This document shows positions 10,065-40,833 of a stretch of 50,980 bases of DNA, piece after piece. Each line of letters starts with the position of its first letter. Positions within the stretch are counted from its first letter, which is position 1. The DNA comes from Pseudofrankia coriaricola. Lineage in GTDB: Bacteria; Actinomycetota; Actinomycetes; Frankiales; Frankiaceae. The stretch spans positions 1 to 50,980 of the forward strand of contig NZ_MBLO01000136.1 in the NCBI RefSeq assembly GCF_001854805.1, read 5' to 3'. Below the pieces are notes generated by a model that worked only from the letters and a program-made list of their open reading frames with translations, ran no database searches and had not been told where the DNA came from. Position numbers and translations under genes: made by a program.

Positions 10065-10311
10065 GATCAACTCCCTTGGTCTCTCGGGCCACAGGCGCCC
10101 ACACCAAACGTAGATGAGGACGCCGAGTCGAAGGCCGCTGGGCGGACTGGGTTGACGTCAGTCCCCTGAAAACGCCAGAGTCCTCCTTCCCCGGTGACCT
10201 CGCCTGAAACGCCATCATTGAGGCGCCGCGGGCCGCGGCCGTTCTTTGCCTGCGGCCATCCCTCCCGCCGCCAGGCTTACTCGGGGGTTCACCGAAAATC
10301 GGGACTCCGCC

Positions 10312-10518
10312 AGTGATCCTGGGGACAACGGCCGCCGCGCGTGCGAAGGAAGATCATTTTCGCACACCCTTTGGCCCTCTAGTGATCCTGGGGACAACGG
10401 CCGCCGGGCGTGCGAAGGAAGATCATTTTCGCACGCCCTTTGGCCCTCTAGTGATCCTGGGGACAACGGCCGCCGGGCGTGCGAAGGAAGATCATTTTCG
10501 CACACCCTTTGGCCCTCT
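10312..10518. repeat. Three tandem 69-bp palindromic repeats
   Basis: The copies lie at 10312-10380, 10381-10449 and 10450-10518. Each begins AGTGATCCTGGGGACAACGG and ends CCCTTTGGCCCTCT. Each contains a hairpin with arms GTGCGAA and TTCGCAC; in the middle copy the stem is a perfect 11 bp (GGGCGTGCGAA) around an 11-nt loop holding GATC, with outer GGCC sequences able to pair. The period is divisible by three and the copies lack stops in three of six frames. The last copy supplies the TAG stop of the TetR gene. This resembles a REP/MITE-like element. Confidence 0.92.
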
Positions 10519-11158
10519 AGACGGCGAGCTGGCCGGGCGCCGGGACGGAGGGGAGCACGCCAACTGCCCCCATCGACTCGTCAAGGAGGTTCGCGAGCCG
10601 GACCCGGCCCTCGGCAGCGACCCATACCGTCTGGGCGGCGTCCAGGCAGGCGAGCGCGGCGCCGGCGATCGCGACCGCGCGTGGATCGGCACTGTCGGAG
10701 GCCGCGGTGGGTGGACGTGGTGGCAGCCGGGGCGCCAGATGAGGAGCGAGCAGCTCCCGCCAGCGGGACTGCTTTTCCAGATGACGGGCCTTCAGGCTCG
10801 GCGTGTCCCGCAGCATCCGCAGGACAGCCAGCGTGCCGGTGGGGTCGTGGTCGTTGTGTTTCGCGATGACCTCGAAGGCACGACGCAGGGCTGTCCAGGC
10901 TGGCTCGTCGTCGGGGCGCTCGGCGAGGGCGGAGGCGAGTTGCTGACCGCCGTACTCGAGGTTGCCCAGGACTACGTCTTCCTTCGACCCGAAGTAGCGG
11001 AAGAAGCTGCGCTTGGAGATCCCTGCCTCCGTTGCGATCTCCTCAACACTCGTGCCGTCGTAGCCGCGTTCCACGAAGAGCCGCATCGCGATGGACATCA
11101 GATCGGCCTGCACCGCCCGGCGGGTGCGTTCCCGCAGGCCAGGCGAGAGCTCCTCCAT
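10517..11158 (-). CDS. TetR-family regulator
   Basis: The protein is 213 residues. The N-terminal HTH (about 12-60) is classic: ADLMSIAMRLFVERGYDGTSVEEIATEAGISKRSFFRYFGSKEDVV. The C-terminal ligand domain carries long helices and a conserved AALACLDAA segment. It is divergent from the SDR-LLM pair, 100 bp away, and likely represses it; the ligand is unknown. Its stop codon lies inside the end of the third 69-bp repeat, so the native C-terminus may have been replaced when the repeat arrived. Confidence 0.92.
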   Translation of the reverse strand: MEELSPGLRERTRRAVQADLMSIAMRLFVERGYDGTSVEEIATEAGISKRSFFRYFGSKEDVVLGNLEYGGQQLASALAERPDDEPAWTALRRAFEVIAKHNDHDPTGTLAVLRMLRDTPSLKARHLEKQSRWRELLAPHLAPRLPPRPPTAASDSADPRAVAIAGAALACLDAAQTVWVAAEGRVRLANLLDESMGAVGVLPSVPAPGQLAV

Positions 11159-37060: not shown

Positions 37061-38580
37061 GGCGTGGCCAGCGCGTCTGCCGTGGCCGGCGACGCCGTCG
37101 GCCGAGCCGCCGCTGGCCTGGACGACGCCAGTTCGGGCGCCGCAGGCTTGGACGATGCCAGTTCGGGCGCCGCAGGCTTGGACGATGCCGGTTCGGCCGT
37201 CGGCTCTGCCGGCTCCGGCCCCGGCCCGGGCTCCAGTGGCGTCGGCGACGCTGGCTCCGCCGGCTTCGAGCGTGGCCGCGATGGCGCCCGCGAGGACGTC
37301 GTTGACCGCGTCGGCGCTGGCACGGCGACCTGACCGCCGGTGCCAGCCGGCAGTGGGATCTCGGCATGTACTCGCCAGCCGGAGCCGCCCGGCCCGGCGG
37401 CGCAGGTGCCGCCGAGCGCCTCTGCCCGCTGCCGCATCCCGACCAGGCCCAGCCCGCCGCGGGCGCCCGCGACGCGGGTCGTCATGGCCTGCGTCATCGC
37501 CGCCGCGGCCGTGGTGGTGCCCGTGGCGGCTGCCGCGGCGGCGGTATCGCTGACCAGCGTGGTGTCGCGGACAGGCGGGTGAGTGTCGATGGTGAGTGAC
37601 AACCGGCCGTGGGTGACGGCCAGCCGGGCCGTTGACGCGGCGCCGGGCGCGTGCCGGACGCTGTTCGTCAGCGCCTCCTGCAGGATGCGGTAGACGGCCA
37701 GCCCGGTGGTGCTCGGCAGGCCCGCAAGGTCGCCGGTGACTTCCAGGGCCACCGGCGCCCCGGCGGCGCGGTACCCCTCGACCAGGTCAGGAATCCCGGT
37801 GGCGTCGGGCAGCGGGACGTGCGATGGGCCGGTGGCACGGTCACGCATCAGCCCGACCACCTGGCGCACCTCGGTGAGGGCGGCCCGGCCGAGCCGCTCG
37901 GCCTCCGCCAGCGCGCGGGCCGCCTCCGCCGGGTCCTCCTCGACGGCGAGACGGGCGCTGGAGATGTGCAGCAGGGAGACGGTCAGCGAGTGCGCCACGA
38001 CGTCGTGCACCTCGCGGGCGATCCGGTTGCGTTCCTCGGCGACCGCCCGTTCGGCCAGCCCGGCCTGAGCCTGCCGCAGTTGCTCGGCGAGGGTGTGCTC
38101 GCGGCGAGCGAGCCAGCAGCAGAAGGTCGCGAAGGTGGTGCCGGCGGCCCACGCGCCCCACCCAGGGTCGGGGGAGGTCAGTGCCTGCACCCCGAACAGC
38201 GCGAGGGCGCCGGCCCAGAACGGCAGCCAGACCGCCGGTGCCGCGATGGCCACCAGCCAGCCCGCGAGGACCACCAGCGCGAACCAGCCAACATTCGACG
38301 AGGAGCCGGCGCAGACCACGGCCGCGCCGGCGGCGGCGGCGACCGCCGCCGCCGGCGCGCGCAGCCGGTGGCCGGGCCGCACGAGCAGCACGGCGACGAC
38401 GGCGATCCCGGCCGCCACGAGCCGCGCGGCGTCGGCCCCGCGCCAGCCAACCCCCTGCCAGGCCACCCCGACGAGCGTGAACAGCGCGAAGGCGACCGGC
38501 GGTCCCCACCGGGCGGCCCACGGGCCCAGCGCGTTCATGGGGCGCATGGTACGGCGATCGCCAGCCGGAATCAGGCTCAC
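37057..38580 (-). CDS. Sensor histidine kinase, HisKA_3 type
   Basis: The protein is 507 residues from GTG 38580, or ATG 38547/38538. Four to five hydrophobic segments (about 25-155) replace an extracellular sensor, suggesting membrane-stress sensing as in LiaS/DesK kinases. The phospho-acceptor H192 lies in REVHDVVAHS; the N box is EALTNSVRHAPG and the G box GGLGLVGMRQRAEALGG. An Ala/Thr-rich insert separates the two boxes. The C-terminal 90 residues are a Pro/Ala/Ser/Glu-rich tail built partly from 30-bp tandem repeats, unusual for this family. Confidence 0.93.
   Translation of the reverse strand: MSLIPAGDRRTMRPMNALGPWAARWGPPVAFALFTLVGVAWQGVGWRGADAARLVAAGIAVVAVLLVRPGHRLRAPAAAVAAAAGAAVVCAGSSSNVGWFALVVLAGWLVAIAAPAVWLPFWAGALALFGVQALTSPDPGWGAWAAGTTFATFCCWLARREHTLAEQLRQAQAGLAERAVAEERNRIAREVHDVVAHSLTVSLLHISSARLAVEEDPAEAARALAEAERLGRAALTEVRQVVGLMRDRATGPSHVPLPDATGIPDLVEGYRAAGAPVALEVTGDLAGLPSTTGLAVYRILQEALTNSVRHAPGAASTARLAVTHGRLSLTIDTHPPVRDTTLVSDTAAAAAATGTTTAAAAMTQAMTTRVAGARGGLGLVGMRQRAEALGGTCAAGPGGSGWRVHAEIPLPAGTGGQVAVPAPTRSTTSSRAPSRPRSKPAEPASPTPLEPGPGPEPAEPTAEPASSKPAAPELASSKPAAPELASSRPAAARPTASPATADALATP
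37111..37200. repeat. Three 30-bp coding repeats in the kinase tail
   Basis: Units at 37111-37140, 37141-37170 and 37171-37200 each encode a ten-residue AAPELASSKP-like unit. Copies differ by a few bases. They lie in the disordered C-terminal tail of the histidine kinase. Confidence 0.85.
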
Positions 38581-40573: not shown

Positions 40574-40833
40574 ACCAGGCCACGGCTCTCCCGTCCCCGA
40601 GGGAGGGCCATCGCCCGCGGGCGGGCTCCTGGAGTCTCTGGTGGCCGGGCCGGCGTTCCGGCGCTGGGGAGCGACCCGGCTGCTCGCCGTTGGCTGCGTC
40701 GACACGGTGCTGCTGGTGCTGCTGGTGCTGCTGGTGCTGCCGGTGCTGCCGGTGCTGCCGGTCGCGCTCGGCGCCGGCGCCCTCCCATTGCGGCCGGCGC
40801 TGTCGCCGCGGGCGCCGGCGCAGGCGTGCCGAG

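Follow-up and report, generated by a model that had tools for sequence, protein, structure and literature searches.

A dispersed and recently mobile 69-bp palindromic element of Pseudofrankia that inserts precisely and with good reading-frame compatibility

Here we describe a 69-bp palindromic element of Pseudofrankia coriaricola that is real, dispersed and recently mobile, and that combines precise insertion with good reading-frame compatibility. The element came to attention in a window of 50,980 nucleotides (the whole stretch of DNA that was analysed), in which a sequence-only reading had noticed three near-identical tandem units of 69 bp next to a regulator gene. The features of this locus are as follows.

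10306 to 10311, plus strand: left flank TCCGCC, a degenerate version of the target hexamer CCCGTY
10312 to 10380, plus strand: element copy 1, which starts with AGTGATCC, ends with CCCTCT and has an imperfect stem
10381 to 10449, plus strand: element copy 2, with a fully paired stem and the loop GGAAGATCATT
10450 to 10518, plus strand: element copy 3, the same sequence being present at at least six other places in the genome
10519 to 10520, plus strand: AG dinucleotide, present at both ends of most insertions
10517 to 11158, minus strand: TetR-family regulator gene with TetR_N and TetR_C_14 domains

Alignment and TRF bore out the three near-identical tandem units at 10312-10518. Over 76 nt, copy 2 shares 95% and copy 3 shares 96% identity with copy 1, and TRF placed the units head-to-tail with spacings of 69 and 69 and 97% matches. 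The claim that each copy forms a strong hairpin held for copy 2 (-18.5 kcal/mol, z -2.6) when the units were folded as DNA and compared with shuffled sequences; copy 3 was weaker (-12.9 kcal/mol, z -1.1), and shuffles folded as well as copy 1 itself (-10.9 kcal/mol, z -0.2). GATC was located in the hairpin loop, as stated. Matched changes at stem positions were found across the genome-wide family but not among these three copies, because copies 1 and 3 carry a C-A mismatch at stem pair 29-55. The original observation is thus partly confirmed, in that the units are real and strong hairpins are not found in all three, and we consider it very probable that the three units form a local cluster of copies of a palindromic element that is mobile but non-autonomous. 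The window also contains a 30-bp unit repeated three times in tandem (37108-37196) and a 9-bp unit repeated about six times in tandem (40705-40762), both lengths being multiples of three, as well as a 126-bp tandem repeat of 2.3 copies at the window start (1-288), which, at a guess from the DNA, could belong to a WD-type repeat protein.

The element is dispersed through its own genome (G000), where a 69-nt unit query returned at least 46 copies with 97-100% identity over 68-69 nt, a lower bound because scoring covered just 40 of the 202 candidates of the first look. A 23-nt core, allowed up to 3 mismatches, matched 177 places in the 11.2-Mb genome, the first 100 of which were listed, while the reversed control matched none. 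Extending the search to 35 genomes of the family with a 34-nt pattern, we found 180 places in G000, 35 in G004, 18 in G001, 11 in G003 and one each in G002, G005 and G006, but none in G007, which belongs to the same genus, or in 27 genomes from other genera. All seven genomes with a match are from the element's own genus and, among the genomes compared, the element family was found in one genus only. The unit is spread through its own and sister genomes, as a dispersed element should be, and local duplication alone is rejected as an explanation of a repeat that occurs genome-wide. Plasmid and phage sequence searches gave no match for the element, viral contigs contained none, and the exact pattern was absent from genome_contigs in a search that may have omitted near records. 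At least ten G000 contigs (C40, C56, C57, C65, C106, C135, C191, C255, C264 and C265, with C106 judged from a short locus) end in or at an element, so the true copy number is higher than counted. Array lengths are probably underestimated as well, with contigs breaking at arrays; element arrays break short-read assemblies.

For a closer description of the unit, 200 units or part-units were taken from the fetched stretches (140 from G000, 35 from G004, 19 from G001 and 6 from G003). Grouping of the G000 units delimited 107 loci, not counting copies inside assembly gaps, which are missed: 84 single, 16 double, 6 triple and 1 fourfold, so that two to four units stand at 23 of 107 loci. Covariation was analysed in 98 distinct 69-nt units (66, 18, 11 and 3 from the same four genomes). 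The 16 stem pairs were standard pairs in 94% of cases, compared with 39-57% when one side was slid, and pair 29-55, for instance, occurs as CG (37), TA (33), GC (13) and AT (3). Both the Watson-Crick fraction (0.87 versus 0.78 in shuffles) and the number of pair types (23 versus 20.5) were reached by 0 of 1000 shuffles. With related copies and a structure taken from one family unit these values are strong but give no true probability, and derivation of the stem model from a family unit makes the control lean toward the claim. The comparison shows that the stem is preserved through compensating changes. In the inner stem, 25 G-T and 35 A-C cells are about equal in number, a balance that would agree more readily with selection on the hairpin as DNA than as one-strand RNA, and an Rfam search returned one microRNA family far below threshold. 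The unit ends TGATCC and AGAGGG are mismatched by eye, leaving the element without evident terminal inverted repeats.

Within an array, the median difference between units is 3.5 positions (23 arrays, 38 pairs, range 0-22), whereas first units of different arrays differ at 16 positions (253 pairs). Since units are alike within an array and less so between arrays, the tandem copies probably derive mainly from local duplication, and local duplication following a single insertion is the simpler reading of the arrays, although in 16 of the 38 pairs from one array there are at least 8 differences, some of them due to indels. Repeated insertion into the unit's own end is less likely, given that the units of an array have private variants in common. 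A second palindromic repeat (CGGACCTCCCAGATCGCTTCGCGATC) occurs at 38 places with up to 3 mismatches (control 0) and, in 7 of the 30 loci shown, is nested within the 69-bp element, always at one and the same internal position; the presence of this composite at different loci indicates that it moved as a unit. At 30 of the 38 G000 places (L159-L188), copies of this second family (CAGACCTCCCAGATCGCTTCGCGATCCGGCAGGGACCCC) are clustered in both direct and inverted orientation.

Precise insertion is seen at the flanks. Counts over 83 left flanks of first units in G000 gave C57 C75 C59 G45 T57 for positions -6 to -2 and T (44) or C (34), together 78, for position -1, and 100 right flanks gave A79 at +1 and G86 at +2, with nothing clear farther out. 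Where the left end is canonical (n=68), AG stood at the right in 65 loci and the exact hexamer CCCGTY preceded the unit in 16. For 18 young copies we then fused the two flanks in silico, and 15 of these joins served as queries against the genus. An element-free relative aligned across the join for all 15 queried sites. Judged by eye, both flanks were well aligned in about eight of the 15 (L096 with L278, L027 with L301, L029 with L302, L043 with L270, L049 with L286, L072 with L271, L098 with L300 and L195 with L308), and otherwise the alignment was chiefly on the genic side, the left flank of L088 and L198 being aligned over just 8-18 bases. AG follows the join in the best relatives of 14 of the 15 sites, with AT in L300, while the more distant relatives L317 and L273 have GA in place of AG. 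Empty sites read, for example, CCCGTT/AG (L278, L304, L307), CCCGCT/AG (L270, L305) and CTCGTC/AG (L302), where the slash marks the join. Because the hexamer is found in element-free relatives, it is the target and not part of the element. Comparison of the loci thus shows that what is inserted is a single 69-bp unit, no more and no less, placed between AG and a hexamer that resembles CCCGTY. The 15 empty sites revealed no target duplication beyond AG, and the products leave the cut bond within AG indistinguishable. The right end of the unit, CCCTCT/AG, itself resembles the target.

This target often coincides with a stop codon, and the stop is retained at that codon. Gene calls were based on open frame and GC3-GC2 alone, without annotation, and a set of 54 canonical loci was used, which omits 53 of the 107 (14 with a short flank, 20 with the right AG absent and 19 with a non-canonical left end). 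Read from the flanks, 33 of the 54 sites were a stop codon before insertion, 16 as TAG on the left and 17 as TAA, TGA or TAG on the right. The frame giving an immediate stop was used by 16 of 19 plus-strand genes on the left and 18 of 26 minus-strand genes on the right, the right-side exception without a pre-existing stop being the window's TetR locus. As background we drew free sites from the same stretches and matched them by target score, with the lower quartile and the median of the occupied sites as cut-offs. Stops were found at 26/41 occupied versus 38/437 free sites at or above the lower quartile (Fisher 2e-15) and at 18/27 versus 8/75 at or above the median (Fisher 7e-8), in a control that leans toward the claim because the score was trained on occupied sites; for the exact motif the enrichment was weak (7/14 occupied versus 9/35 free). 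A first background, in which 35 exact CCCGTYAG sites were set against 40/67 loci (Fisher 0.002), was unmatched and has been superseded by the score-matched control. This looser set of 67 loci has 40 in a stop frame, and of its 34 gene calls on the right side 7 fall in the single truncating frame. The pattern may reflect either a preference for stop-codon sites or the loss of truncating insertions.

A stop at the element end is therefore a common pattern of the family and extends beyond the TetR-family gene, at whose 3' end the window's array sits. There, as the sequence-only reading had proposed, copy 3 supplies the stop, a TAG at 10517-10519 on the minus strand that takes two of its three bases from copy 3. 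Removal of the array in silico extends the frame by seven codons (WRSPDFR) before a TGA, and on this reading the insertion would have created a new stop for the gene. We sought an array-free orthologue in the genus, where the nearest relatives, at 54% or less, were not close enough to serve; the best named match of the gene is in Nocardia (60%), followed by Parafrankia and Frankia.

Three of the six frames are open in the tandem canonical unit, as had been noted, but shuffled units have a mean of 2.7 open frames and 56% of them have three or more. We therefore reject the idea that three open frames are special, since they are usual for this composition. On insertion at CCCGTTAG, the stop would be kept in both stop frames, 23 residues would be added in three frames with the downstream frame unchanged, and one frame would be truncated, while at CCCGTCAG the CAG frame truncates as well. 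In the three read-through frames the unit gives 23 predicted residues, and copies of this kind are found in conserved protein genes. Among 130 loci from four genomes, nine frames cross a copy and show coding signal both before and after it, and seven of the nine, in six genes, were accepted; the in-frame candidates L027 (minus strand) and L104 had been set aside before the domain search. The expected 23-residue additions were thus recovered in predicted proteins of six kinds, less surely a seventh, and in three frames.

GlnE: in-frame copy in G004 (L158), at the same place in G000 (L045)
PrmC: in-frame copy in G001
CcdA: in-frame copy in G000, two units, 46 residues
Glycosyltransferase: in-frame copy in G000
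NRPS adenylation domain: in-frame copy in G000
FtsK/EccC-like ATPase: in-frame copy in G004, the weakest case (24 bits only, usual ends absent)
SDR (adh_short): in-frame copy in G000 (L195), outside the coding-signal filter

The SDR of L195 is predicted to read ...PTGPL[VILGTTAAGCAKEDHFRTPFGPL]AGKAAIVTG, and its element-free relatives read ...AGPLAGKAAIVTG (L308, G004) and ...AGALAGKVAVVTG (L309, G001). When the predicted proteins were compared with solved structures, the PrmC, NRPS and CcdA inserts mapped to places where the relatives have short links, the CcdA insert being set in a longer loop of CcdA's own. The glycosyltransferase insert falls between the two domains of the protein. The FtsK-like insert is located within the domain and is itself partly aligned, and the GlnE insert precedes the second catalytic domain and is not covered by the alignment. 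GlnE is a regulator of glutamine synthetase, and its in-frame copy is shared by two genomes; an insert at the same place in L045 and L158 is thus old and tolerated. The glycosyltransferase frame (L082:3918-5831) contains two in-frame inserts, a composite near the N-terminus and a unit with a partial unit between the domains.

How could such an element move? We envisage a form in which the ends are joined as CCCTCT/AG/TGATCC, either as a double-stranded circle or as a single-stranded hairpin. A trans-acting recombinase or transposase would connect this form to CCCGTY/AG, reading mainly the left side of the join, and gene-truncating insertions would be mostly lost or stop-codon sites preferred. 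It is conceivable, if tentative, that we are dealing with a new class of minimal mobile DNA, in which a 69-bp hairpin is moved by an undescribed enzyme into a one-sided 8-bp stop-codon target and the host protein is left unchanged or extended by 23 residues in five of the six frames at CCCGTTAG.

A known type of enzyme may also be responsible. DEDD (IS110/IS1111) and serine recombinases perform double-strand exchange at a 2-bp core, and a mini-element using a recombinase of this kind, with AG / CT as the core and a circular form, is a possibility that we regard as doubtful. It would account for AG at both ends and for the absence of any other duplication, but IS110-family guide RNAs match both sides of their target and here the left half alone is clearly conserved. 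A mini-IS of the IS110 family with 29- and 16-bp ends has been found to move (PMC11187229), and G000 has five IS110-type matches, a count that may miss other members. In stretches of 3.2-3.5 kb, however, these five loci contain no exact CCCTCTAG, AGTGATCC or GACAACGG, and L190 and L191 carry one CCCGTCAG each.

We think it unlikely that the element is REP-like and depends on a tyrosine transposase of the Y1 (HUH) type, related to those of RAYT/IS200-IS605, which would transpose single strands, cut after CCCGTYAG and use the hairpin as recognition site. IS200/IS605-derived elements have a one-sided target and a hairpin, and the present element agrees with this mode in its one-sided target, the lack of evident terminal inverted repeats, a duplication limited to AG and a hairpin that resembles the target at its 3' end. 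Moreover, AACGG before the stem complements CCGTT of the target, a reading of the sequence that chance could produce, and REPs lie mostly downstream of coding regions (PMC3733652). The proposed search for a RAYT spoke against such an enzyme, since the PF01797 (Y1 transposase) profile had no match in G000, G001, G003 or G004, three of which are draft assemblies, and among eight genus genomes matched only G007, which is itself free of the element. A hand count on contig C1 of G004, with dnaA located, the terminus assumed opposite and the second contig excluded, gave 17 copies with and 19 against replication; this count, which older copies underlie, shows no orientation bias and gives lagging-strand insertion no support. 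Among 84 listed left ends, of which the five outside the core list were read and the rest assigned by eye to units already known, none began a larger, autonomous copy. A transposase gene enclosed by two copies was also considered, and none of four stretches read by eye looked like such an arrangement; between the inverted arrays of L112 lies an apparent ABC transporter pair. A search for IS91-type Y2_Tnp gave no match but carries no weight, its control being equally silent.

The positions of the copies might instead reflect a selected function at gene ends, in mRNA 3' ends or termination, and not target choice. A hairpin directly at stop codons recalls the positions of REPs, and among the 67 loci the element is oriented opposite to the gene in 25 cases and in the same direction in 15, but before the element arrived the sites already had a target-like sequence and served as stop codons, and the G-T to A-C balance of the inner stem does not point to one-strand RNA, so that we judge this explanation improbable. 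Spread of an immobile repeat via gene conversion or segment duplication, although compatible with diverged copies common to orthologous sites such as GlnE in two genomes, is extremely improbable and is refuted for the 15 young copies compared, whose flanks are mutually unrelated and whose sites are empty in relatives.

A mobile element of this kind behaves like REP, MIRU and RPE, each in different respects, and lacks two features of the REP/RAYT system. Like REPs of the GTAG and CGTC super-families, which are high-copy short palindromes, many downstream of genes and some in tandem clusters, it is a palindromic repeat of high copy number (177 core matches, control 0). Its carriers lack a PF01797 match and the repeat lacks a GTAG/CGTC tag, because the empty sites of relatives already contain the hexamer that precedes the unit, which so belongs to the target. 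It also differs from REPs in length (69 bp versus 20-40), in its direct tandem units and in a target hexamer that exists before insertion; the word Actinobacteria is absent from the main text of the REP paper (PMC3733652). MIRUs of mycobacteria are tandem units of 46-101 bp scattered in the chromosome (PMC3914561) and are apparently mobile, inserting at a translation signal in a way that hardly affects the gene (PMC12548453). As a dispersed direct tandem unit of 69 bp, our element falls within this range, but MIRUs are described at start codons with coupling whereas it stands at stop codons, and the likeness is one of size and arrangement. Rickettsia palindromic elements (RPE) are palindromic units in frame inside conserved proteins (PMC2229807), which the predicted in-frame copies resemble; the 69-bp element differs from RPEs of 105-146 bp in that its target is defined, empty sites exist and stop codons provide a second niche. 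With small elements derived from IS200/IS605 it shares the lack of inverted repeats and of a larger target duplication (PMC2817692), but its carriers have no matched Y1 transposase and G004 shows no strand bias. The terminal inverted repeats and duplication of more than 2 bp of DDE-type MITEs were not found; further stem-loop families are treated in PMC2267715. The sequence-only reading had mentioned similar translated repeats in Frankia proteins, and no such report was found in the literature searched. Nor did we find a published account of the 69-bp repeat, which is weak evidence of absence as few subscription journals were covered. Apart from this point and the RAYT, the earlier interpretation is supported.

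Collectively, one element with precise empty sites unites three separately known themes: palindromes as in REPs, insertion at translation signals as in MIRUs and in-frame palindromes as in RPEs. This makes it possible to test both movement without a RAYT and the notion of a mobile element that is kept harmless by reading frames, and the element may supply GlnE, PrmC and other proteins with new segments.
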